Shown here: positions 1 to 16,183 of the stretch, one piece after another
Numbering within the stretch: the first letter of the stretch is position 1
How the letters are laid out: each line of letters opens with the position of its first letter
Origin: Aurantiochytrium sp. KH105
Lineage: Eukaryota > Sar > Bigyra > Thraustochytrida > Thraustochytriidae
Length of the DNA stretch: 64,000 bases
NCBI GenBank assembly: GCA_003116975.1
Contig: BGKB01000069.1
Coordinates: 186,001-250,000 of the forward strand
Reading direction: 5' to 3'
Notes under the pieces: generated by a model
Seen by the model: only the letters and a program-made list of their open reading frames with translations
Databases searched by the model: none
Told to the model about the DNA's origin: nothing
Position numbers and translations under genes: made by a program

Positions 1-253
1 GGTATACGTGTCTGAGACCAGCAACATTGTCCAACCCAAAATTCGGCAGATCGCCGTCTTCCGCGTCAGGAATCCACCATACTCGTAAAAGTTGCGGGAG
101 CGCCTCAACTCGTACGTCGTTTTGCAGCACTCTTAGAGCCTCTGGACTGTTCTCGACCTCTTCTTCGAAACTCGTCGCCGAGTCTGCGTTAAGCACGAGC
201 ACAAGTGGCCGGTCGAAGCTCTCCCTCTGGGCTACCGCGTCCTCGCTCGCCAT
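1..253 (-). CDS. 5' end of a paralogue of the helicase-glycosyltransferase giant gene (cut by window edge)
   Basis: Read on the minus strand, an ATG at 253-251 opens a frame with no stop down to base 1, giving about 84 residues. It starts MASEDAVAQRESFDRP and contains SFEEEVENSPEAL and LLRVWWIPDAED. Aligned by eye with the N-terminus of the giant protein encoded from 15,481, I count 47 identical residues over 73 positions, so this is a diverged paralogue and not a recent copy. The frame upstream of the ATG stays open and weakly resembles the other copy, but it has no earlier ATG, which supports MASE as the start in both genes. Nothing can be said about the rest of the protein, which lies left of the window. 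It points away from the ROCO-TIR gene at 1,012, so the two may share the 758-base gap as a divergent promoter. Confidence 0.75.
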   Translation of the reverse strand, partial: MASEDAVAQRESFDRPLVLVLNADSATSFEEEVENSPEALRVLQNDVRVEALPQLLRVWWIPDAEDGDLPNFGLDNVAGLRHVY

Positions 254-1011: not shown

Positions 1012-4000
1012 ATGGAGATCATGGACGCGAAAGGAGTTGAGGACGCGATCAAATTAATGCCTAAAGACGCCAAGCAGCTATGGTACGTCAACAACGGCAC
1101 AAAGACACAGGAAGTGAGATTCGCTGACCGTCATGCGCGTTACAACGCAACGTTTCAAAAATTGTATGGCCGTGTTACCTATGTCATCTTCTTTGGTGAC
1201 TTTCCACGACTCTGCATTTTTCCACCACATTGTTCATGATGTTCGAGCGCAGTTTCGGAGGAACTGAAATCAGCTTGGATGGCGCAAAAAAGCTAGCAGA
1301 TATGCTTGCAAAGGATGAATTGCCCCGAGAGCTAGAGTAAGTGACAGCGATTAAAGATGAACCATGAGCAAGGATCAATAAGGACTGACCAGCAGACCGT
1401 TGGGATGAACTTATCACTACAAATGGACGCACAACGCTGCCGTCAATGGTTCCTGCACTGCGCTATACACCTTTGTTTTATAACACTGTCCATCATGCAC
1501 AAGCTCAGTCTCGGGGATATGAATCTTGGCGATAATGGCGTGAAGCATCTGGCCAAGGCGCTCGCAACAAATTCGTCGCTGCAGACGCTCTGGTAGGTAA
1601 CAGTGAGGGTAGAAAAATCGTGCGCAAAGAATAAGAATGGCTGATCAGCGAGCATATTGCAATAATCTTTTCGCGTCAAACATTGTCGTCAATGGTTTTT
1701 ACACTTCGCCGTGCACGGTTCGGTTTGCAACATTGTCATTGATGCACAAGCGCAGGCTAGGTTCTAATAAAATCGGTCCAGATGGCGCAAAGGCGCTAGC
1801 AGATGCGCTTGAAGAGAACAAGTCGCTGCTAATGCTGTGGTAAGTGACAATGAGGAAAGAGATACTATGTGCAAGGAGCAAGAACGACTGAACAGCAAGC
1901 ACACGTCGCGATAAATCTTATTTACAAAACCCATGCACAACGCTGTTGTGAATTATTCTGACACTGCGCTTTGCACATTTATTTATCACATTGTCTTCAT
2001 CGCATGGTTGTAGGCTTACTTATAACAATGTCGGCGCCGAAGGCGCCAAAGCGCTGGCAAAGGCACTTGCAAAGAATTCGTCGCTGCAGACGCTAGAGTA
2101 AGTGATCATGAGGAAAGAAGGATTGCGCGCAAGAAGCAGGAACGACTGACCAGCAAGAACGTGACAATACTCTTATCGCACGAAACGTATGTATAACGCT
2201 GTCTGCAATCGTTTGTACGCTATGCTCTGCATGTTTGATTCTTTCACGCCACTGGTCATATTGTATGAGCGCAGGCTTCGGCATAACAACATTGACGATA
2301 TTGGCGCAAAGGCGCTCGCGGATGCACTCACGAAAAACAAAACGCTACAGAAGCTGGAGTAAGTGACAGCGAGCAAAGAGAGACTGTCCGCAAAGATGAA
2401 AAACGACTGACCAGCAAGCATCTTATCAAAAACGTATCGCACTGAACGGATGCACAACGCTGCCGTCTATCATTGGAAAACTGCATCATGCACGTTCTCG
2501 TTCACGATACTGTCCATATTGTATGAGCGCAGGCTTTGGAAAAACAACATCGGCGATGATGGCGCAAAGGCGCTTGCAGAGGCTCTTGAAGATAATAAGT
2601 CGCTGCTGAATTATCTTGAGTACGTTGCAGAAAGACTCGGCACGGGCAGGCCAGTACCCCACTGACATTCGCTATATGTCATCTCAAAGCTTGAGCGGAA
2701 ACAGGATTGGCGACGCGGGAGCGGAAGCTCTAGCGACTGCGCTAGAAAGAAATAGCAGCCTTCAAAAATTAGGGTGCGTTCAGAAAAAGTGATAGTCGAA
2801 GGAAAACGTGACAACTGAACGCTCACCATGTGCATATAAAACAGCCTGAAGAGTGTGCATTCAAGTCGTATCTCACCAGGCATACTCGCTCGTATTGCGA
2901 CCCAAGTTAAGCTCGTGCAGGAAGAGTTAAGAGATTCCACCAAATTCGCATATAAGGCACTTCTAGCTGACGCAAAGGTGCGTTGGGGTCGCGTCAAACT
3001 CATGATCGTGGGCAAGGGCGCCGCAGGCAAGACTTCGACGATTCGCTCGCTTTTAGGTCAACCTTACAATCCCGATCATGACTCAACAATCGGAGTTGAC
3101 CTCAAGTTGTTGCGCACGCGTGACTGGGAAGAACGCAATCATGTCAGCAACGCTGATCTTGGCGAGCAATTTGCAAAATGCAAGTACCGTCTGCAGGACG
3201 TTGCCGAGTATTCCCACCTACATTTGTCGGATGATGTAGTGCAGACCCCTCGACCTCCTGGCAATGTGTCTACCTCGAGTAGTGCATCGAACCAATCATT
3301 TGACCAAAAGGATATTGCCAAAGCCGTCACTTCAACTCATCATTATGCAAAGGAGAAAGCCAGCAATCTAGATGACGAGATCAGCTTCATGATTTGGGAT
3401 TACGGTGGGCAGGAAGTCTTCTACGCCATGCACCATCTGTTCTTGACGCAATATGGCGTCTACATGCTGGTTTTCGACATGCGCGAGGTGCTTGGCAAGG
3501 AGCGCTTCAAAGAAAAGCTCGACGAGAAAGAGTACGCCAAGCTTGCCTCGCAAGAGGATTCCTTGGAGACGCTTCGCTTTTGGATCGACTCCATCCGTCT
3601 GCACGCACCGGATGCCAACATCGCCATCGTGGGGACATATTTGGACCAGGTACCGGATTCCGAGGATCACGAGGAGATCGAAGACTCCTTAGAGACGGGG
3701 GTGCTGAGACCTTGCGGCGCAAAGCCCGTTGTGCTGCTGAATGACGAAGCACGGCTCTGGTTTTTCCCGATCGACAACACCGATCGGGATGACAAGCGCA
3801 ATCGAGTCATGTCGCTTCGCGAATCGCTTTCAAAGGCTGTTGCCGACAAAGATTTTGTCAAGAAGAAGGTACCATTACGGTGGTCCTACTGCTTGGAAAA
3901 GCTGCTCGCGCAAGACGAGGATTACTTGTCGCTGCGGGTGGTAAAGGAACTGGCAACCAAAGAGTGCCGCGTTCCGGAAGTGGATGTCCCGGAGATGCTC

Positions 4001-5617
4001 AAGTACATGCACGAACTCGGCGTGCTTGTGCACCTGACGACAGGCCAGCATGACGTGCTGCGACAGACTGTTGTGATTCGGCCGCAGTGGCTATTGAAAA
4101 ACCTATCGCGTGTCATTTGCGACCCGGGCATGAATCACATGAAAAGGCACAAAAAGAAGCTTTTGTATCAAGAAAAACTGCCGAGGGCCCTAAGAGTTGC
4201 GCTCGATGCCTGGTCAGAGCGTGGAGTTGCCAGTCGACAACTACTGGAGTGGCTATGGCGAGGACAACGTGTCGATTACCTTGTTGAGCTTATGCACGCA
4301 ATGCTGTTGGCATGCCCGAGTCCATGGATCGACGATATTGACAAGAAGGGTGATATCGTCGACAAGGAGGGCGCACTTCTGATACCGAGCCTTTTGCAAC
4401 CAGTGAAGGACGACGTCAGGACAGAGGCACTTTGCGGCCTGGGCAAGCAACACGCTTTGGCTTTTATCGAGTTCAAGGTTCTTCCCAAAGGTGTGTTTCA
4501 ACGCTTCGTTGCCAGTCTCATCCAGAGTTTGCCGGGCCTCGTGGGCGTGAGAAATGATGTCGTATTCTCGAACTTTGCGAGTATTGCCTTTGACAATGTG
4601 AGCGTGATTCTGGAAACGAGTGGCAGGCGGATCATGCTTCACTTTGAGACTCCCGCGGACAAGAGTCTGAAGAGTCGCGTTGAGATTCTCCAGAAATGTC
4701 TTGAGCGCATCGACTCGTCTTTCATGAGGGGAAATCTTGGACCGAAACTCTTTCTCAGCTCTGATGGCTCCGATAGCAAAGAATCGTGTGCTTCTATCGA
4801 TGCTTTTATGGCTGCTTCAACGAGAGAAGTTTCATCGCTGCAAAGGGGAAAGCGACTTCCTTTGGAACGTTTCTCGCCGTTTGTGGAGGATTGCGAGGCC
4901 GCGCGGGGCCTGCATTTGTCTGTCACAAGCGATGCCAAGCCTTTCGATGTCTTCTTATCTCACAACTGGGGTGAGAACGACGAGGTGCACAACAAGGTGG
5001 AAGCTGTGGCGGCCGCACTCGAAAAGCGCGGAATCCGCTGTTGGCTCGATGGGGAAAATATTGGCACAGAGATTCTCAAGTCGATGGCGGATGGAATTGA
5101 CCGTTCCAAAGCTTTTGTGGTCTTCGTGACCCGAGAGTACATGAGGAAGGTCAATGAGCCGAGGACGAAGTCTGACAACTGTCGTGACGAGTTCTGTTAT
5201 GCTCTAAAGCGCTTAAAGCCAGCGAGTATGATTCCTTGTGTATTGGAAAAAGAGATGGAGAACATGAGCACGTGGAAGGGGCGTTTCGGGATATCGTGGA
5301 GTGGCGATGCATTGTATGTTAAAATGTTGAAGGGGGGCGAGCCAGACGAGGTAGAATCTCTTGTATGGTCAATCAGCAAGGTCACTGGCTTGCAAGAGGA
5401 TGCCACGAAGCCTTCTGAAGCAGCTGAAACAAAGGAAGCGGATGCTAAGGAAGCCGAGAAGAGGTCGGCAGCAGTAGAGACGTCGGGCACGAGCTCAGAC
5501 GCATCGAGCAGATCAGGTGACAAGAACGAGAGTGAGAGCAACGTCAAGTCAGCAGAGAAGAAGAACGACAACGATGAGGACGAGAAGCATACTAGAAAGC
5601 GGAGAAGGATTGATTGA
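1012..5617 (+). CDS. LRR-Roc-COR-TIR protein (ROCO-type NLR-like receptor), nine exons
   Basis: Proposed exons are 1012-1082, 1253-1336, 1509-1592, 1756-1839, 2014-2097, 2275-2358, 2533-2619, 2690-2773 and 2845-5617. All introns are GT...AG and phase 2, and the exons sum to 3,435 bases (1,144 residues). Exons 2-8 each encode one 28-29 residue ribonuclease-inhibitor-type LRR (I..DGAKALADAL pattern). The last exon holds a Roc GTPase with P-loop GKGAAGKTS near residue 276 and switch II DYGGQE near 406. A COR region follows (LRQTVVIRPQWLLKNL), then a TIR-like domain from about residue 922 (DVFLSHNWGENDEVHN, IRCWLDGENIG) and an acidic/basic tail ending KHTRKRRRID. By analogy with ROCO and NLR proteins, the LRRs would sense a ligand, Roc-COR would switch and dimerise, and TIR would signal. 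The ligand is unknown. The TIR position usually filled by the catalytic Glu looks like Lys, so an NADase function is doubtful. First-exon start is the least certain part. Confidence 0.85.
1253..2773 (+). repeat. Tandem array of LRR exon-plus-intron modules
   Basis: LRR exons start at 1253, 1509, 1756, 2014, 2275, 2533 and 2690. The first five spacings are 247-261 bases, while the last is 157. Six exons are 84 bases and one is 87. The introns are also alike: they begin GTAAGT or similar, share strings such as ACGACTGACCAGCAAG, and most end near TGAGCGCAG. The array therefore grew by duplication of whole exon-intron units. Confidence 0.8.
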
Positions 5618-6441: not shown

Positions 6442-6870
6442 TCAGTTCTTCCTTCCGGTGACCGCTCGATCAAGCTTCTGCTTAAAAGTGCTGATGGCCC
6501 TTTTCAACTCCGCTTCAACGCCGTCTGAGGGTTGCAGGATCCCCGCTCGCTGCAAAGAAGAAAGACCAAGAGATCTTTTGAACTCCCCGTAAGTCGTACA
6601 CGTCTGCAATAGAGTTCGTGCATGATCATAGAACCTAGGTGGCAGCCGCGGGTCTTGGTCTTCGAGCAGTGGACGAATGGTGTCTTGAACTTGACGCATT
6701 GGAAGCTCTCCAGGCTTCTGGCTCGGCGAAGGGGGTTGGTCCGCATGCCGCTGATCTGCTCGAGAAGAAGTTGCAGACTGCGGTCTTGATGTGCGCTCAG
6801 TTATCGGCTCGCCCGCTGTCGATGTTTTTGCCCCTCGGTCTACAGAAGCTGGGGTCGGGACGTTGCCTTG
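6442..6870 (-). CDS. Putative last exon of the giant gene: fifth copy of its C-terminal repeat
   Basis: This minus-strand frame is open from 6870 to a stop at 6442. It contains a module clearly homologous to the repeats of the giant protein: RPLLEDQDPRLPPRFYDHA, then SLQRAGILQPSDG, then LKRAISTFKQKLDRAV. The region before it (QGNVPTPASVDRG) resembles the proline-rich linkers between the other repeats (QANVPSPVPAP). A GT at 6934-6933 and an AG before 6870 would define a 64-base intron (6871-6934) that keeps phase 0 and removes the stop at 6926. The protein would then have about 2,991 residues. The alternative is that the unit is a decayed, no longer translated tail. No other intron here is this short. 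Confidence 0.5.
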   Translation of the reverse strand, partial: QGNVPTPASVDRGAKTSTAGEPITERTSRPQSATSSRADQRHADQPPSPSQKPGELPMRQVQDTIRPLLEDQDPRLPPRFYDHARTLLQTCTTYGEFKRSLGLSSLQRAGILQPSDGVEAELKRAISTFKQKLDRAVTGRKN

Positions 6871-6925
6871 CTGGGACGAGTTTACTGAGGCTTATTCTCA
6901 TGCGATTCCACTTTGCGCACACCTT

Positions 6926-9900
6926 TCATGGTACGTATTCACGTGTCACCTTGTTAAATCTCCCCTTGAGTGCATTGATGGCTTTTTTCATATTCTCCTG
7001 TTCACCGTTCGGTAAGATGCCAGCGTTCTGCAGAGTTCGAAAACTCGTGGCACTCACGAACTCTGCCAATGTGGTAGATGTTTGGAGTGTCTCCTTTGCG
7101 TAAGTATAGAATCTCTCTGGCAGATGTGTGTTTTTGCCTTTGAATTCCGCGAGCTGTGTAAGGACAGCAGCGCGCACGGCCTCGATTGGAATGACACTCG
7201 ACTGTTGGCGCGGCGAGCGTGAGCTGTGCGGTGGTGTTGTTGGAGTCGCAGGTGCAGGAACCGGAGACGAGACGTTGGCTTGATGAGATGAGGTCGGTGT
7301 GGCAGGAACACCACGCGGTGTTGCACTTTGCGCATGCTTGAGAGGAGAATCGTCTTTCACAGCTCGGTTAAACCTCTGCTTGAGCGCATTGATGGCTTTT
7401 CTCATATCCTCCTGTTCCCCGCTCGGCAAGATGCCAGCTTTCTGCAAAGTTCGAAAACTCGTGGCACTTACGAACTCTGCCAATGTGGTAGACAATTCCA
7501 GTTTTTCCTTTGCAAATGAATAGAATCTCTCTGGCAGATGTGTGTTTTTGCCTTTGAATTCCGCGAGCTGTGCAAGGACAGCAGCGCGCACGGCCTCGAT
7601 TGGAATGTCATTCGACTGTTGGCTCGGCGAGCGTGAGTTGCGCGGTGGTGTTGATGGAGTCGCAGGTGCAGGAACCGGAGACGGGACGTTGGCTTGATTA
7701 GACGAGGTTGCTGAGGTAGAACGAATATGCGGTGTTGCACTTGGTGCAGGAACCGGAGACGGGACGTTGGCTTGCTGGGACGAGATCGATGTGGCAGGAA
7801 CACGACTCTGTGCTTCGTCGACCTGACCAGACGAACCTTGTATCGCCCGGTTGAGTCTCGCTTTCAGAGCCTCAATGGCCTTTTTCATGGCATCCTGATC
7901 CCCACCTGGCAATATCTCGTCTCGCTGCAACTGTCGGTATTTCAACCTTCCCATCAAGTCTGAAATGTTACTGCAGCTTCCCAGCAAATCGCTCACATGG
8001 CTGTAGAACTTTCCTGGAAGGCGCATGTCCTTGGCTTTGAACGACTCGATCTTCTTCCGTGCGTCTTCAATAGACGAATCGCGAGGTGTTGGAGGGGACC
8101 GAGGCGAAGGCATCGATGATGAAGCTGCGCGCACTCCTCCTGGTTGCGTGGACTGCTCCACATACTTTTTTTTCGCTCGTATAAACCTCTGCTTGATTGT
8201 GTTGATGGCGCTGTTCATCTCTCCTTGTTCACCATCTGGCAAAACCTTATTTTGCTGCAACGCTCTGAAGCTGATGCTTGCCACGAACTCCTCCCAGGTT
8301 TCGCAGCTTTCCAACAAGGCAGCTGCATGGCTGTAAAACTTCCCGGGAAGACGCGTATCTTTGGCTTGCGCCATTTCCAGCTGAGCGCGAAGAAATTCTC
8401 GCGCGTCTTCCATCGGTATACTGGCAGGGTTTGGGCTCGGTGAAGGATGTGTGGGAGATTTAGCAAACTGCTTTTCCTCTCTCTGGGAGGACAATGGCGG
8501 CGTGGAGGGCATTTCTCCAGGTTGGGACTCATGGGCAGCCTGATCACGAGAGGCTTGCGAGTTTTCGGAGCCTGAATCTTGCGCTCCTTGCGTTGCTTGA
8601 GGACGATCACCAGGACCAGTCCTCCGTGGCTTCTTGGAGGATATGCTATCCGAACTCAGGTCAGTCTTTCGTTTCGAATTTCCGTCAGTGGACGAGCTGC
8701 TCGTGTTGTTATCTCGCTTCTTGTTGTCGGAAGGGTCTCGTTTTCCGAAGAAGCTGTTGATGGGACGCTGGTCATTCTTCAACCGTTTATCAGGAGACGA
8801 GGCGCTACTCGCTGCACTTCCTCGTCGCTTCTTTACCGGAGAATCTTTACCAATGCGGCTCGGAGGTGGCCCGTTCTTCGGGGCGTGCGGTTCCCGACCT
8901 TCGGAGTGCTTGGTATTGAGCGCAGGGGACACAGGTGTAACCGTTTGAGTTCTGCCCCCCGGTGCCTCTAAAGGTGAAGAGGAAGTCAGATCAGCTTTGG
9001 CCTCGACAACGAAAAGTTGCGTCGGGAATGGATTCTGAACTTGTGCCTTGCGATAAATCTTAAGCTGCCTATTTCCGCCCAAGAGATTGATACCATCGTC
9101 TGCATCGCCAATCTCAGGAAACGCATCGATGTCGTCATCGCGGACTATGAGCAGCAGATTCGACAGTTCTCCAGACGTTCGCACCACGATTCGATTATAT
9201 GCATCATCCCGGGAGACCTCCAAAAAGCACGTTAGCAACGCATTTGAGGGCGTCACACCAGCCTCACCAGAGATTCGATCCCAGAACTCCGCAGCCCATA
9301 GTTTATTTTGCTCGAAAAACGTTGGCATCGTCTTCGACCAGAGTGGCGCCGGCCTCAACCCCCCCTTCAATTTGCCAAAATGATCCAGCGCCTCCGAAAG
9401 GTCCGTAAAGCATGGCGTCAACGCAGCAGCCCGCTCCCTGATCTTTCTCGCACTCAGCTTGAGGTTCTTCTTGTGATGAAAGAAGCGATTCACCTTGAGG
9501 CAGACCAAGCCAGCCTCGTCAACCAGGTGATTGAACTCCACGTCTTCCCAAAACGTCTTGATCGGGAAAAACACCCCGGCGTTCACTGTGCTCGTGACAT
9601 TCAAGTAGATGAACGAGTACACCGAATACGTGACCATGAACGGATGCTCGGACTCTGTTTGGCGGGCCCGGGGGTCACGACGGATCCCAATCAGTCCGTA
9701 CTGATTCGCACCTCCTGTTAGCTCCCCTTTGGAACGTACATTTCGATTGCTCGCTTCAGGAGCTGGCCTTTTCCGAAGCACGGGGCCATTGGGCTTCCAC
9801 TTGTTCATGCGTTTCTGCTGGTGCGCTTGGGTGAGTTCTTCATCCTCGTTGTGCACAATACTCTCGACGCCTGTCATAACCGTTGAGAAAGAGCATGCAT

Positions 9901-12900
9901 CTGGATGAGCGCTCAGTGCATTTGCCGGGACTTTCTCCTCAAGCTTCCGCTCATAGCACACATCGACGTTGTCGTCGAGGATCCAGACCCAGGGAAGGCC
10001 GAGCTGATGCGCCGCGAGCTGGACGAACAGCCGAGCATATCCAATGCCACCTCGTTCTGCGAAGACGCGAGATCCTTCCAAAGTCTTGGACGCCATCGAT
10101 GCCGGAAGACCGAGGATAAGATGAGCGGATCCATACGCCGCTACGTAGGTATCGAATTGCTTGCCACTCCGGACCACGAGGCACACGACCGTTGGCTTGC
10201 CGCTATCGTCTCTGGGTATCGCCTTTTCGTAGTCCACGAGCGCAATGCCAGCACGGTTGTACGAGGGCACGAACACCCAACGAACGTTCGTGGCATCATT
10301 CAACGTGCTCATGGTTCGCGTCTCCGGGGAGAGACTCACGTTGAGGAGCTTGCGCTGCCCGACCTTAATCTGCATGCTGCGACCATCCGCTTTGAGGTGC
10401 AGACCATGGAAACCAGCATAGGGTGCCGACAAGCAGACACCCTCGCCTACGAGCTTGACATCCTTGACTATGTACTGCTTGCGGTGGTACTTATTGGTGA
10501 AGCCTGAAGATGTAGATCGAGCAGCGACGCTCTCATACGCATTCGCTGCTGTCACTGACTGCGTAAAGCTGTCCGCCCCGCCGTCTTTAGGCTGATCCAT
10601 GCGTCCGCGTCGAGACCCGGCATCCCAGAGCTGACGTTGAACGTGCTCACGTGCAATGCGTACCCGATGTCCCATCGATGTGCCTGATTTTTTTGCATGC
10701 TTGTCCAAAATATCACGAAGCTGAGCCGTGTCGTTTTGGAGAAACGATTTTGCGGGAGTATCTCCTTCGGCAGAAGAAAACCGACCGTCAAAGTTGACAC
10801 AGTCAAATGCGAGTTGAGAATTCGTACACCGAGAATCATCAAAAGGAGCACCGAGCCCTTCGACTGTCTTACCAAGCACTTCAATCTTGTCAAGACCCGC
10901 CCTCGAAACAATAGCCTCGCCATCTTCGCCAAGCAAGTAGTCGCAGTATGCCTCGTACCAGCCAGATTCATTCTCACTCGCAAGCATGAGTGCAAGTGTG
11001 CGTTGTTGCAAAACACTTGCGTGGTATTGGCCCGTTTGAGGCTTCGCATACGAGCTCCTAAGTGCTGGAAAGCCGGGCGATTGAGAGCTGACAATGAGGT
11101 TCCTCCAGTGCGGCAGAGTCCATTCTGCCCGCGCAACCAACGGAAGCGCATCAGGAGGCGTTGGAATCGTAAGCTCCGCGCGCTCCTTGAGTAAACGCAA
11201 GAAATGTAGATATGTCCCGGTCTTGCCCTGCTGGCACTGCGCCATGAGCAAGAGACGACGTGGATCAAAGCCACCACTGTGCCCGCTGTCGTAGTGAGTA
11301 GCTTGCCGACTCGTTTGTGTACTTCTTGATCGGTAAGCATCAATGTCATGCATCGGATTGATGATGACTTGCTCTCCTTTGATGGTATCGAATCGAGGGG
11401 ACGATGCTGTGGCAGCGCGTCTCGGCCCAGAAGACAAGTACAGATCAAGTGGACCAGGAATGCACTGATCAATGCGCTGGCGTCCTTCCGCATCACGATA
11501 CTTGTGCTCGATTGCCTTTTGCAGCTGCGCGTTGTATCTCTCTTCGTTCATCAGCACCGTCGGGAGCACGTGCACGTAGCGCTTCACTGTCCACGTGCCG
11601 AATCGCGCCCGTCCATCATCGATATTCCCCAAGGCCGTACGGAACCCGGACTTGAGCTGCAGCTCCGAATCGGCATGGAAACGCACCTCCTGGCCCGGGT
11701 CCATAACGGCATAGCTCCCGCCTTTGGCAAAATACCTTCTCACTTCAGGATTGTTGAAAAAGTCATCGAGCTGTTGCTCAAGCGCCGCCCAGCCTCCTTC
11801 CTCAGAGACCTCAAAGGTGACTGCACTGCTGGAGTCAAGGCCTGGATAGCGGCAAACGCGCCCGAACTCTTGTACAAACGTCGAGAACGTCTTTGATGAG
11901 CGCAGACGGATGTCAAGAAAGCGAAACGAATGCGGAAAGGTGTCACCCATGCGCCCCTTCTCGCACAAAATCACGATCGTGGGCAAGTTCTCCAGGTCTT
12001 CGTACTTGGCTGTTTTCTGGACAGCTTTAGAAGGTGTGGAATGAGATGCTTCTCCGAGATGTTTCCGTGCCTCAGCCTCCTGAGCCTGCGCTTCGGCAAA
12101 AGACTTGTTCACGCGGTCAATAATGGTCTCGCGCTCAGTCCCCGCGTCGTCTTGCTTCGCGTTGACTTGCTTGGACGGATGCCGCAGGTCGCGAGTTAGT
12201 GTCCATGGCTCGAGCTGGGTGAAAAGACTTGTCGCGCGTCGAGCAACCTTTTGCACCTCCTGGCCTCCAGACGTTCGCTTCTTCTTTCCATCGCTGCCAC
12301 CAACATCTGCAACAACGCTAAGCAGCCCGCCTTCGTCGGGATTGGTGCTGGTGAGCCCTAGCTTTTTCAGTGCGCTGCGGAGACAGTCCTGTATCGAGAG
12401 GTTCTCGTCCGTCTCGTAGACGCGAATGACAGCCATGCGTCCTGTTCTGTACCTGGGATCGATGTCAAGCAGATCGTGCAAGAGACGGTCAGTCTCGTTG
12501 TACCACGACTGGGATGTGTTGCCTTGCAAGTCCGTGCGATCTTCGCGGTTGCGTTCCAGCTTCTCAGAGATGACATACTGCCAAGCGATTCGCCAATGCG
12601 CAGGCGTATCATGATTTTCTGCTGTTTCAAGACGCTTTGCTTCTTCGACCCATTCTGTGTTGAGCCGACTCGCAAGGGTCTGCAATTTGTCCTTATCGAT
12701 CAAATCGTTTAACTCAGACCACACTTCTTTCACGGTCGCCTCGAGAAGAACCTTGAGAAGGTGTTGAACGGAGGCTTCTTCAACGCCACCAGCGATCATG
12801 AAACGCCCCACTTCTTTCTCTGTTTCGTGGGCAACACCTGGCCATACTCGATCTGCAAAGCCAAGATGAAGAGCAAAGGCCTTGAGCTTCTCATCGTCAA

Positions 12901-15481
12901 GAGCAAGTCGCTTGACATCATCTTTCTCTAGTAGTGCAAAAATATCCTTGCGGTCGTCCTTCACCCAGAGGTTGACATGGTCGATCCGATACACCGCAAG
13001 ATATGTGAGCGAGAGAAGGTAGTCTGCCATGATGATATGGCCATCGTAGAGAGGAGTTGATTCGGCCACCCTGATCCCCTTTTGCTTACGCTTGGCTGCA
13101 CCTCGCTTGCCGAACGACCTGTTTGCAAGTCCACGCACGACATCAAAGGCCTCATCTTTGAGTACACGCTGACGTCGACGTGGAAGACAGTCCACGGCCT
13201 TGTCATCGTCGTCTGTATCGCAAAAGAGTGGGACATCTTTTTTGCCATCTTTTTCGACATCTTTTTTGGGATCTTTATCGTCATCTTTTTCGCCATCTTT
13301 TCCGATATCTTTTCCGTCATCATTTTCGCCATCTTTTTCGATACCTTTTTCGACATCTTTTTTGGGATCTTTTTTGGGATCTTTATCGCCAATCCTGTAG
13401 TACTTATTTCGTCTATCTTTTGTTGCATTCTCACGTGCTTCCTCAAATTCGGCGCGATGTTTATTAAAACCAAGCCAGTACAGCAGGCCCGTCTTTTCAT
13501 CGAAGTTCTCCTCAAAGTCGAGCTTGAATTCACGTGAAACGGTCAGCAACAATTTCTCCTTTCCACGTTGAACCGAAACCATCTCTTTCCCCAACTTCAG
13601 GCCTAGCACCTCACGCACCCTGCAATTGAAGACACTGCAGAATGCTTTGTAGTCGTGCATCGGGTAGCGGTATGCACAACCTTCATGCGTGAACACACGC
13701 GGGTCGACATCATAATTTTCCCCTTTGACATCGATCCTCAGCGGCCGTACGTAACTTGGAACCGCCCACGTCGCCGTCTCGACGTAGTAGTCCATGCTGC
13801 GGTACATCGAGGCGGGCTTGAACCAGCGAACGATGTTTCTATCAGCAACCCGTGAAGCCTTAGAAAGTACGTTTTGCGGCGTTGCAGATACAAGTAAGCG
13901 AAGCACATTCTCACCACTCAGCGCTGGGTTATTGAGAAGCCAATCGTGTGCGCCATCTTTCGTCGGCGCGAAGTGACACTCGTCGGCGATGATGACAAAG
14001 AGAGTCTTTGGGTTATTGGCCTCCTCTTCCATCCACTTTCGGTGCGCGTCCATAGCCGCATGCGGCACCTTGGTGTGCTTGAGCACACGTCCGCCTTCGA
14101 GCTTTGCGCGTGTGACTCTGTCTGCAGTCTGAGACTGCAGGGAATTGAAGTTTGGTGTGAGCACGACGAAGGAGACGCTGTTGAACTTGGACGTCCAGAC
14201 TGCGTCTATTTGACCAAAGAGGACCTGCTCGGCTTTGCGGAAAACCTTTTCGGCGACCTCGCGTTGCTCAGGATGCGCAACATCAGGCTGTGACGTGCCG
14301 ATCTGCTGACGAAGTGCGCTCTGCTCCTGAAAGGCATCGGTATCAACGTGGAGCTTGGCACACATCAGTGCCGGTTTTTCTTCATCGTCGTCAAGCTCTC
14401 CGTCACGTTCTTCGTCAAGCTGCATCGAGATATGGTTGCGAAAATCTTGCACAAGAGTCAAGCCAAAGCTTGCAATCTCGCGAGTCACTTGTTCCCACGC
14501 TCTCTCTGCGTGTGCGTCTTCGGGAGTGAGCAGCTTCTGTGCGAGTATCTGACGCCGTTCCAGATCGATCTCGAAGCGTGGTCTAATGAGCTCAATGGTT
14601 CCTTCTTGGCCATTCACTTCTTCATTTGCGCTGTCCACAACGAAGATGATTTGTACAGGCCGATCAGCTGCCTCATCGTCGTCACCTATCGTCTCGTCGT
14701 CAGCTTCTTCCTTGATGTCCTCCTCATCCTGGCTTTCTAGACTCACTTCGAGAAGCTTGCGAACGTTCTGAGCTTTTTCGGATGCGAACACGAGCAGAAC
14801 ACTCTGCGTAGAAGCGCCGTCCGCATCGCGTAAAAGTATAATGCGGATTTCGGGCGTATTCGCTCGCAACAACTCTGCCCGCAGTTGACCTTGGAGATCA
14901 TCAGAGTCTACGAGATTGACAAAATGAGAAGCCATATTTGCGAACTGTCGGAGCGGGAGTAAATAGTGCCGGCTTGGAGCTGAGAGCGACTTTGCTGCAA
15001 GATCTCTGAGAGCTGTCGCGACATATTCGTTGTCAGGAGATGCACTGATCCGAGCTCTTTGATGATCGGGTTCATCTTGCAGCAACGTAGATGCAGGATC
15101 GCTCCTCAAGGCGCTGAGGCAAAGCGCAAAGAGCTCTAGGCCTTGTACATTCGAGTACTTTCTTTTGAGACCAGCAACATCGTCCAGCCCGATCTCCGTC
15201 GAATCGTCTTCCTCCGCGCCCGCAATCCACCAGACCCGTAAAAGTTGCGAGAGCGCCTTGATTTCGACCTTCTCCTGAAGCGCATTCAAAGCCTCCGGAC
15301 TATTCCCAACCTCTTCTTCGAAGCTTGTCGCCGGGCTCGCGTTGAGCACGAGCACAAGAGGTAGGTCGGAGCCGCCCTCCTGCGCCTTCGCGCCCTCCTG
15401 CGCCTTCGCGCCCTCGCTCGCCATGGCGTGCGCGTATTCTTGCTCCACCTCCGCGCGCAAGTTGAAGTTCTGGATTGTCAT
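6926..15481 (-). CDS. Giant fusion protein: SF2 helicase-like region, TAGT-like glycosyltransferase, PIP box, C-terminal repeats
   Basis: This is a single 2,851-codon frame. The start at 15481 (MTIQNFNL) gives the longest product; MASE at 15424 is conserved in the paralogue. In order, I see helicase motif Ia (FVVLTPNFNSLQSQTADR, about 438), motif II DECHF (500-504), motif III SATPQN (532-537), a long insert with a KD-rich repeat, motif V-like CEKGRMGDTFP (about 1175) and motif VI QEFGRVCRYPG (about 1203). A P-loop-like MAQCQQGKTGTYLHFL follows near 1415. From about 1733 comes a GT-A-like domain (VFVPSYNRAGIALVDY; GIGYARLF; WVWILDDNVDV near 1830) resembling TET/JBP-associated glycosyltransferases. 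Next are basic clusters (KKRRGS) and a PIP box QRPINSFF at 2238-2245, then at least four repeats of about 85 residues joined by proline-rich linkers. A nuclear, PCNA-linked, DNA-acting enzyme is inferred. Substrate is unknown. Confidence 0.8.
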   Translation of the reverse strand: MTIQNFNLRAEVEQEYAHAMASEGAKAQEGAKAQEGGSDLPLVLVLNASPATSFEEEVGNSPEALNALQEKVEIKALSQLLRVWWIAGAEEDDSTEIGLDDVAGLKRKYSNVQGLELFALCLSALRSDPASTLLQDEPDHQRARISASPDNEYVATALRDLAAKSLSAPSRHYLLPLRQFANMASHFVNLVDSDDLQGQLRAELLRANTPEIRIILLRDADGASTQSVLLVFASEKAQNVRKLLEVSLESQDEEDIKEEADDETIGDDDEAADRPVQIIFVVDSANEEVNGQEGTIELIRPRFEIDLERRQILAQKLLTPEDAHAERAWEQVTREIASFGLTLVQDFRNHISMQLDEERDGELDDDEEKPALMCAKLHVDTDAFQEQSALRQQIGTSQPDVAHPEQREVAEKVFRKAEQVLFGQIDAVWTSKFNSVSFVVLTPNFNSLQSQTADRVTRAKLEGGRVLKHTKVPHAAMDAHRKWMEEEANNPKTLFVIIADECHFAPTKDGAHDWLLNNPALSGENVLRLLVSATPQNVLSKASRVADRNIVRWFKPASMYRSMDYYVETATWAVPSYVRPLRIDVKGENYDVDPRVFTHEGCAYRYPMHDYKAFCSVFNCRVREVLGLKLGKEMVSVQRGKEKLLLTVSREFKLDFEENFDEKTGLLYWLGFNKHRAEFEEARENATKDRRNKYYRIGDKDPKKDPKKDVEKGIEKDGENDDGKDIGKDGEKDDDKDPKKDVEKDGKKDVPLFCDTDDDDKAVDCLPRRRQRVLKDEAFDVVRGLANRSFGKRGAAKRKQKGIRVAESTPLYDGHIIMADYLLSLTYLAVYRIDHVNLWVKDDRKDIFALLEKDDVKRLALDDEKLKAFALHLGFADRVWPGVAHETEKEVGRFMIAGGVEEASVQHLLKVLLEATVKEVWSELNDLIDKDKLQTLASRLNTEWVEEAKRLETAENHDTPAHWRIAWQYVISEKLERNREDRTDLQGNTSQSWYNETDRLLHDLLDIDPRYRTGRMAVIRVYETDENLSIQDCLRSALKKLGLTSTNPDEGGLLSVVADVGGSDGKKKRTSGGQEVQKVARRATSLFTQLEPWTLTRDLRHPSKQVNAKQDDAGTERETIIDRVNKSFAEAQAQEAEARKHLGEASHSTPSKAVQKTAKYEDLENLPTIVILCEKGRMGDTFPHSFRFLDIRLRSSKTFSTFVQEFGRVCRYPGLDSSSAVTFEVSEEGGWAALEQQLDDFFNNPEVRRYFAKGGSYAVMDPGQEVRFHADSELQLKSGFRTALGNIDDGRARFGTWTVKRYVHVLPTVLMNEERYNAQLQKAIEHKYRDAEGRQRIDQCIPGPLDLYLSSGPRRAATASSPRFDTIKGEQVIINPMHDIDAYRSRSTQTSRQATHYDSGHSGGFDPRRLLLMAQCQQGKTGTYLHFLRLLKERAELTIPTPPDALPLVARAEWTLPHWRNLIVSSQSPGFPALRSSYAKPQTGQYHASVLQQRTLALMLASENESGWYEAYCDYLLGEDGEAIVSRAGLDKIEVLGKTVEGLGAPFDDSRCTNSQLAFDCVNFDGRFSSAEGDTPAKSFLQNDTAQLRDILDKHAKKSGTSMGHRVRIAREHVQRQLWDAGSRRGRMDQPKDGGADSFTQSVTAANAYESVAARSTSSGFTNKYHRKQYIVKDVKLVGEGVCLSAPYAGFHGLHLKADGRSMQIKVGQRKLLNVSLSPETRTMSTLNDATNVRWVFVPSYNRAGIALVDYEKAIPRDDSGKPTVVCLVVRSGKQFDTYVAAYGSAHLILGLPASMASKTLEGSRVFAERGGIGYARLFVQLAAHQLGLPWVWILDDNVDVCYERKLEEKVPANALSAHPDACSFSTVMTGVESIVHNEDEELTQAHQQKRMNKWKPNGPVLRKRPAPEASNRNVRSKGELTGGANQYGLIGIRRDPRARQTESEHPFMVTYSVYSFIYLNVTSTVNAGVFFPIKTFWEDVEFNHLVDEAGLVCLKVNRFFHHKKNLKLSARKIRERAAALTPCFTDLSEALDHFGKLKGGLRPAPLWSKTMPTFFEQNKLWAAEFWDRISGEAGVTPSNALLTCFLEVSRDDAYNRIVVRTSGELSNLLLIVRDDDIDAFPEIGDADDGINLLGGNRQLKIYRKAQVQNPFPTQLFVVEAKADLTSSSPLEAPGGRTQTVTPVSPALNTKHSEGREPHAPKNGPPPSRIGKDSPVKKRRGSAASSASSPDKRLKNDQRPINSFFGKRDPSDNKKRDNNTSSSSTDGNSKRKTDLSSDSISSKKPRRTGPGDRPQATQGAQDSGSENSQASRDQAAHESQPGEMPSTPPLSSQREEKQFAKSPTHPSPSPNPASIPMEDAREFLRAQLEMAQAKDTRLPGKFYSHAAALLESCETWEEFVASISFRALQQNKVLPDGEQGEMNSAINTIKQRFIRAKKKYVEQSTQPGGVRAASSSMPSPRSPPTPRDSSIEDARKKIESFKAKDMRLPGKFYSHVSDLLGSCSNISDLMGRLKYRQLQRDEILPGGDQDAMKKAIEALKARLNRAIQGSSGQVDEAQSRVPATSISSQQANVPSPVPAPSATPHIRSTSATSSNQANVPSPVPAPATPSTPPRNSRSPSQQSNDIPIEAVRAAVLAQLAEFKGKNTHLPERFYSFAKEKLELSTTLAEFVSATSFRTLQKAGILPSGEQEDMRKAINALKQRFNRAVKDDSPLKHAQSATPRGVPATPTSSHQANVSSPVPAPATPTTPPHSSRSPRQQSSVIPIEAVRAAVLTQLAEFKGKNTHLPERFYTYAKETLQTSTTLAEFVSATSFRTLQNAGILPNGEQENMKKAINALKGRFNKVTREYVP
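13232..13389 (-). repeat. 12-base tandem repeat encoding a lysine-aspartate-rich tract
   Basis: The plus strand shows repeated ATCTTTTTCGCC/ATCTTTTTTGGG-like 12-mers, about thirteen in number. On the minus strand they encode KDPKKDVEKDGEKD-like residues in an insert between helicase motifs III and V of the giant protein. The period keeps the reading frame. The tract is probably a disordered, length-variable charged linker. Confidence 0.75.
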
Positions 15482-16183
15482 GCGTTGTCCATCTCAGGGC
15501 AGCTCAACAACCCTGGACAACTTGGTCAGCGGTGATTGGACTTTGGTCAGCGGTGATTGACGACAACGATCGGCCATGGCGGACGACAATGTGAGTTCTT
15601 GCGGGGGGTTGTAAGTGCAAAGGACTTATAGCCTATACTTACAAATGGTCTTTACCACCATGAAAGTGAGACAAAATCTAAAAGTCACTGACCTCTGAGG
15701 CTTATACACACGATCATGTCACGATCTCAGGAAACGTGACACTTGTACGTGACGGAGAACGTAGCCGAGCGCAAATACCGTGTACGAGCGCCTGGACATC
15801 CCTGCTTCGCTAAATTGCGGGCCTTGGAGCGCAGCCTGACCTGTGCCGCTGTCCACGCTTGAGACGTTGTTGATCGATCAGCGCAAGCTGCTGCCCTGGT
15901 TCTGCCGCGTGATCGTGCACGTGAAGAACTTGCTGGGCTGGCCTTGTGCTGTACTTCACTAATAATACAACGTGAAAATCTCCTTGCAAGTGGCAAAATG
16001 ACGGTTGCGCAACACAGTGATTCTGGTGCACTCGTCAAGGCAATCGATGGGATGAATTGCGGAGAGAAAGAAATAGCATTCGTGAACGTGAATAGATAAC
16101 ATGTTCCGTCACTTATTGGATTGCTCAAACGCGTCGCACTACAACCGATTATCATCTTATCGTATGTCACTGAACAAGCGCAG
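15482..16183. other. Divergent intergenic gap of the giant gene and the LRR-kinase pseudogene
   Basis: This gap lies upstream of the giant gene (minus) and the decayed LRR-kinase gene (plus). It contains a 17-base direct repeat (listed separately). A possible tiny first coding segment reads ATG GCG GAC GAC AAT followed by GTGAGT at 15576-15596; it may be the remnant of a first exon of the plus-strand gene. No other gene is supported. Confidence 0.35.
15522..15559. repeat. Two copies of a 17-base direct repeat, period 21
   Basis: The string TTGGTCAGCGGTGATTG occurs at 15522-15538 and again, identical, at 15543-15559. It lies 41 bases upstream of the giant gene's longest start. A two-turn spacing in a divergent promoter is compatible with a paired protein-binding site, but no function is shown. 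Confidence 0.6.

Follow-up and report, generated by a model that had tools for sequence, protein, structure and literature searches.

What is done, and to which substrate, by a protein that joins a superfamily II (SF2) helicase to a glycosyltransferase (GT)? This question is raised by an open frame of 2851 residues on the minus strand of the window, i.e., the whole 64,000-nucleotide stretch of Aurantiochytrium sp. KH105 DNA that was analyzed. The frame runs from 6926 to 15481 and was translated from an ATG start. The initial annotation, made by eye, described a helicase–glycosyltransferase fusion with basic, nuclear localization-like clusters and a PCNA-interacting (PIP) box, regarded the combination as undescribed, and proposed an enzyme that rides with the replication clamp and glycosylates, reads or repairs DNA.

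Domain organization and copies of the GREB1-like gene

Two Pfam models matched the protein above their curated cut-offs: cpSF2-GREB1 (PF20692) at residues 401–1443 (11153–14281, on the minus strand, as are all features of this gene), with an E-value of 3.7e-110 and 370.1 bits against a cut-off of 26.2; and TAGT (PF20691) at residues 1736–1873, with an E-value of 5.2e-10 and 40 bits against a cut-off of 27.5. Both profiles agree with the domains that had been recognized by eye, and the SF2 motifs and glycosyltransferase peptides lie where they had been placed. The basic clusters, KKKR (residue 1066) and KKRR (residue 2217), were also present. The combination, on the other hand, had been described before: cpSF2 followed by TAGT is the known core of GREB1, according to the names of the Pfam models and an excerpt of the review PMC6163654. 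Judged by the sequence of this core, the window gene is GREB1-like, with its domains in the same order as in GREB1. We call it GREB1-like, and not GREB1, because searches with GREB1_N, run without a positive control, gave no match in the window protein at E 1 and none in the genome. What appears to be new compared to known GREB1 is that the motor motifs are kept, that the N- and C-terminal parts have no known match, and that the gene is present at several loci. The circular permutation of the helicase, the C-terminal repeats and an extra repeat copy in a downstream frame had been missed in the initial annotation.

A profile search of the 76-Mb genome assembly (367 contigs) gave 12 hits to cpSF2-GREB1 and another 12 to TAGT, all above cut-off and located in the same 12 open frames. 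We infer that these 12 copies represent six loci on two haplotypes. From a FastTree analysis of the core and pairwise identities, C182a/C96a, C182b/C96b and C182c/C96c are allele-like, being 92–95% identical over the aligned residues. The window gene (C69win), C138a, C69w2 and C138b formed one group in the same tree (support 0.93), with C15/C196 beside it; within the group, C69w2 and C138b paired with a support of 1.00, while C69win and C138a were not resolved as sisters. At the DNA level, window positions 15779–35796 aligned to C138 with 94–97% identity, and within the GREB1-like gene the long alignment segments were 86–93% identical between C69 and C138. Since gene order and DNA identity agree, we take C69 and C138 to be haplotypes. 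The dN/dS ratio was 0.30–0.47 in the six presumed haplotype pairs, using the open part only for C196. The N-terminal part of C196 is interrupted by an in-frame stop, of which the other 11 copies show none. The neighbors of the window gene include genes for Nup85, BUD31, kinesin, TRAPPC10 and Exo70, which mark the DNA as eukaryotic. A mobile element is a disfavored reading, given that the C69 and C138 copies are found in the same surroundings on the two contigs, and that a gene with three Myb repeats is close to the copy on C15 as well as to that on C196. Beyond this genome, the full protein gave no PDB matches at E 1 and no phage matches at E 1e-5. No relatives of the full protein or of the helicase–GT alignment were found in IMG/VR, nor any relatives in GTDB contigs, in searches with a short-peptide prefilter by which distant relatives can be missed. 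Among the matches listed in the GREB1 literature, none dealt with a GREB1-like family of protists.

The helicase motifs follow each other along the window protein in the order II, III, V, VI and then I. Motif II, ADECH (residues 499–503; 13973–13987), has the DECH sequence in 10 of the 12 copies and DDCH in C69w2 and C138b. Motif III, SATP (532–535; 13877–13888), is identical in all copies, as are motif VI, QEFGRVCR (1204–1211; 11849–11872), and the Walker A sequence of motif I, AQCQQGKTG (1414–1422; 11216–11242). In motif V, GRMGDTF (1176–1182; 11936–11956), one site is Met in 10 copies and Leu in two. The helicase is circularly permuted, since motif I comes only after motif VI, and the name of the Pfam model agrees. 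The ATPase signature motifs look intact (GKT in I, DExH in II, which varies in two of the 12 copies, and QxxGRxxR in VI), suggesting that the motor uses ATP. According to the excerpt of PMC6163654, the C-terminal part of GREB1 contains a superfamily II helicase that is circularly permuted and is joined to a TAGT domain; this helicase is presumed to bind nucleic acid without being catalytically active. Because the vertebrate helicase is reported to be silent, motor activity cannot be transferred by homology to the protein described here. NCBIfam gave two matches to the helicase, both far below cut-off, and a PDB sequence search with the helicase–GT profile gave none at E 0.1. At the edge of the window (1–253, minus strand) lies the 5′ end of the neighboring GREB1-like gene, C69w2, one of the two copies that have DDCH as motif II.

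The N-terminal region that is common to the copies (residues 38–395; 14297–15370) had no Pfam match above cut-off. The same region is joined to one C-terminal repeat in a shorter gene of 1133 residues (L036, 4114–7515, minus strand) that has no helicase or GT match; the copy of this gene on C138, a 1242-residue frame, has the same two parts, the N-terminal region and the repeat. The window protein contains four LxxLL motifs, compared to 2.0 expected from 500 shuffles. One of these (residues 77–81) is N-terminal and is kept in all 11 of the 12 copies that have the region; vertebrate-type GREB1 has two in its N-terminal part.

Downstream of the GT domain, there are basic and Ser/Pro-rich stretches and, preceding the repeats, a Ser/Pro/Lys-rich stretch (all by eye), followed by four copies of an 86-residue repeat. 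These were recognized by their pattern at 8165–8422, 7835–8092, 7352–7609 and 6938–7195, the fourth being the copy that was modelled. The model consists of five helices with a mean pLDDT of 86.6. A Foldseek search against the PDB gave 115 matches at E ≤ 10, none of which was significant (best E 2.2); 40 of the best 50 of the 115 matches were bromodomain structures. Six PDB sequence matches of the repeat profile, with a best E-value of 0.25, were read as chance. With a pattern of our own, 29 repeat copies were found in seven of the 12 GREB1-like proteins. A genome search with one repeat found at least 22 places, on C69, C138 and C15, of which 16 were in GREB1-like genes, four in small downstream frames and two in the shorter gene; this search missed the C96c and C182c repeats found by the pattern, making 22 a lower bound. 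The tails of the tandem paralogues C182a and C182b contain cysteine-rich stretches, with no repeat by the pattern and no Pfam match. A repeat search also identified a fifth repeat in a 149-residue open frame just downstream (6442–6891, minus strand), possibly the last exon of the window gene. The end of this frame resembles that of the last repeat of C15, which is in frame there; this suggests that a small intron lies close to the stop at 6926 and that the gene may continue beyond it.

Glycosyltransferase domain and candidate substrates

The glycosyltransferase core, as aligned, comprises residues 1728–2012 (9446–10300). The TAGT match of the whole protein, at residues 1736–1873, spans only profile positions 3–122 of 205; with the excised GT region as query, TAGT reached an E-value of 3.9e-12. 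An acidic motif, DDN (1836–1838; 9968–9976), is a candidate metal site. Its two Asp residues, located in the sequence WILDDN, are present in all 12 copies, while the third residue is Asn in 10 and Asp in two. The EDVE sequence (1979–1982; 9536–9547), conserved as E-x-V-E in 12 of 12 copies, is a candidate catalytic acid/base, and His 2003 in FFHHKKN (9473–9475), equally invariant, is a candidate metal or donor ligand. These catalytic roles are presumed from GT-A enzymes in general. NCBIfam gave no match to the GT region, and the only PDB match of the GT-core profile, to a ribosomal protein at E 2.2, was read as chance.

The reading that we favor, with a probability of roughly 0.6, is that the window gene encodes a GREB1-type chromatin enzyme, in which a circularly permuted SF2 ATPase is combined with a TAGT domain that would transfer sugar to a nuclear substrate in an ATP-driven manner. 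A chromatin sugar-transfer enzyme is expected because the core is homologous to human GREB1, which is an O-GlcNAc transferase acting on ER-alpha according to excerpts of PMC11782371 and PMC10908778 (both citing Shin et al. 2021), glycosylates proteins according to an excerpt of PMC12645433 (citing the same study), and occupies chromatin, as stated in the excerpt of PMC10908778. By this mechanism, the ATPase would bind DNA or chromatin and travel along it at the expense of ATP. The glycosyltransferase would thereby reach its nuclear substrate and transfer a sugar to it, with a nucleotide-sugar as donor. The partner or the place would be chosen by the repeat tail, whose sequence varies from copy to copy. 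We lean towards a chromatin protein as the substrate, rather than a DNA base, given that the reported target of human GREB1 is a protein.

Glycosylation of DNA itself is possible, if clearly less probable. By this reading, an undetected oxygenase would hydroxylate a pyrimidine and the TAGT domain would add sugar as the SF2 motor moves, leaving a mark that silences or labels regions of the genome. The main line towards a DNA substrate here would be the similarity of the GT region to PHROG 842, the profile of the phage beta-glucosyl-HMC-alpha-glucosyltransferase, which was matched at its positions 7–106 of 270 with an E-value of 2.1e-9. The intact-looking motor motifs are also consistent with it, as are three matches to C5 DNA-methylase domains in the genome, and phages are described in an excerpt of PMC12730594 as combining C5-methylase, TET/JBP and glycosyltransferases to produce glycosylated cytosine. 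However, neither Tet_JBP (PF12851) nor 2OG-FeII_Oxy_6 (PF20515) had any match in the genome, in searches run without a positive control, and the reported activity of human GREB1 is on protein. The link to DNA-base glycosylation drawn in the initial annotation has thus not found support so far, the PHROG 842 match being partial and indirect and a TET/JBP partner not being detected. In a set of 50,697 phage records, tblastn with the GT region as query gave no match at E 1. Three IMG/VR loci retrieved with the GT-core alignment were not counted as TAGT relatives: hhalign showed only a short stretch of similarity around WVWILDD, and we discounted them because that peptide was itself a search pattern.

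As an alternative, the protein may be a nuclear scaffold whose GT domain has lost catalysis, with the work done by the ATPase or by the repeat tail. We consider this unlikely. The TAGT profile was matched over about 120 of its 205 positions, and no glycosyltransferase fold was obtained: the AlphaFold model of the GT region (541 residues, 12 sequences) had a mean pLDDT of 38.8 and a pTM of 0.27, making it unusable for the fold, and its sole confident part (model residues 425–541) lay beyond the GT core. Against a loss of catalysis, the acidic and candidate catalytic residues are kept in all copies, and the TAGT region had the lowest dN (0.021) of six regions when the window gene was compared to its allele.

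PIP box and genomic neighborhood

The PIP-box match, QRPINSFF, is present at residues 2238–2245 (8747–8770), as the initial annotation had stated. It formed the basis for the suggestion that the protein is tied to PCNA and modifies or repairs newly made DNA, a role that we find rather improbable, slightly more so than a scaffold. The sequence conforms to Q..I..FF, and has basic flanks within a basic, Ser/Pro-rich stretch. Chance matches were estimated from 5000 shuffles each for a loose (Q..[ILMV]..[FYHW][FYW]), a stricter (Q..[ILM]..[FY][FY]) and the exact (Q..I..FF) pattern. Over the whole protein, 15.9%, 6.4% and 0.6% of shuffles contained a match, respectively; over the last 691 residues, these values were 1.4%, 0.5% and 0.1%, so that a PIP box is uncommon by chance in the tail. 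However, the exact motif occurs in only two of the 12 copies, the window gene and C138a, which we read as alleles of one locus. At the corresponding site, C138b has a degenerate QPRTNSFI and the other nine copies have none; C15 and C196 match the loose pattern at another position, within the region that follows motif I. Conservation in relatives, the test put forward in the initial annotation, therefore fails beyond the allele, and a replication role based on the motif is not supported so far. The PIP box does not characterize the family as a whole. It may work in the window locus, in which case it would be a local add-on that lets the window copy visit PCNA. A similarly long shot is an ATP-active GREB1 core that still acts on DNA bases and so shows what the human GREB1 family did originally, a newly gained PIP box having brought one locus to replication forks.

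A Roc-COR-TIR gene is found between the two GREB1-like genes on both contigs, at 2855–5617 of the window (plus strand) and at 71–2836 of L029 on C138 (minus strand). The encoded proteins are 93% identical between C69 and C138, and PADLOC gave three matches for the Roc-COR-TIR neighbor. No paper was found in a literature search combining Roc-COR, TIR and protist. Two GREB1-like copies flanking such a gene, in an arrangement shared by both contigs, could mark a changing conflict or immunity region, particularly as COR-A and TIR matches also occur at a distance of about 20 kb from the GREB1-like genes of C15 and C196 (C15:78395–79720 and C196:85679–86995). The genome contains more than 100 such genes: when the haplotypes are counted separately, there were 124 COR-A matches, 116 of them above cut-off, and for TIR_2 150 matches were scored out of 258 candidates, showing a large family. 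An immunity role for the GREB1-like genes is nevertheless doubtful, as improbable as attachment to the clamp: TIR genes are so many that nearness can be due to chance, no COR-A or TIR_2 match was found on C182 or C96, which carry the other six copies (with 150 of the 258 TIR candidates scored), scanned flanks near C15, C196 and C182 (eight frames in three 10-kb stretches) contained Myb, myosin and one sub-cut-off LRR, and the GREB1-like protein had no PADLOC match. Both the PIP-box and the immunity readings concern the role of the protein and not its chemistry, and the odds given to the various readings need not sum to one.

Comparison with known systems

The base J and TET/JBP hypermodification systems are linked to the window protein through the name of the TAGT family; they differ in that no TET/JBP domain was found in this genome (by searches without a positive control). 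The first half of the GT domain resembles, at the profile level, the TAGT family and the phage enzymes of PHROG 842. In the window protein, this domain is fused to a helicase and occurs in a eukaryote, and it had no tblastn match in phages at E 1. Vertebrate GREB1 shares the arrangement of the core, in which the TAGT glycosyltransferase comes after a circularly permuted SF2 helicase, based on the Pfam models and the excerpt of PMC6163654. In contrast to vertebrate GREB1, the window protein has no match to GREB1_N (without a positive control for the search), carries C-terminal helical repeats, and belongs to a set of 12 copies in one assembly. Its ATPase motifs look intact, whereas the vertebrate module is catalytically silent as described in the excerpt of PMC6163654, rather than by comparison with a vertebrate sequence. 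GREB1 is linked to cancer, and has been described as having a silent helicase half and a glycosyltransferase activity on protein. Several GREB1-like loci with intact-looking motor motifs thus offer a way to ask what the original function of this core was, including whether the motor is active, which sugar donor is used, and whether the substrate is protein or DNA.
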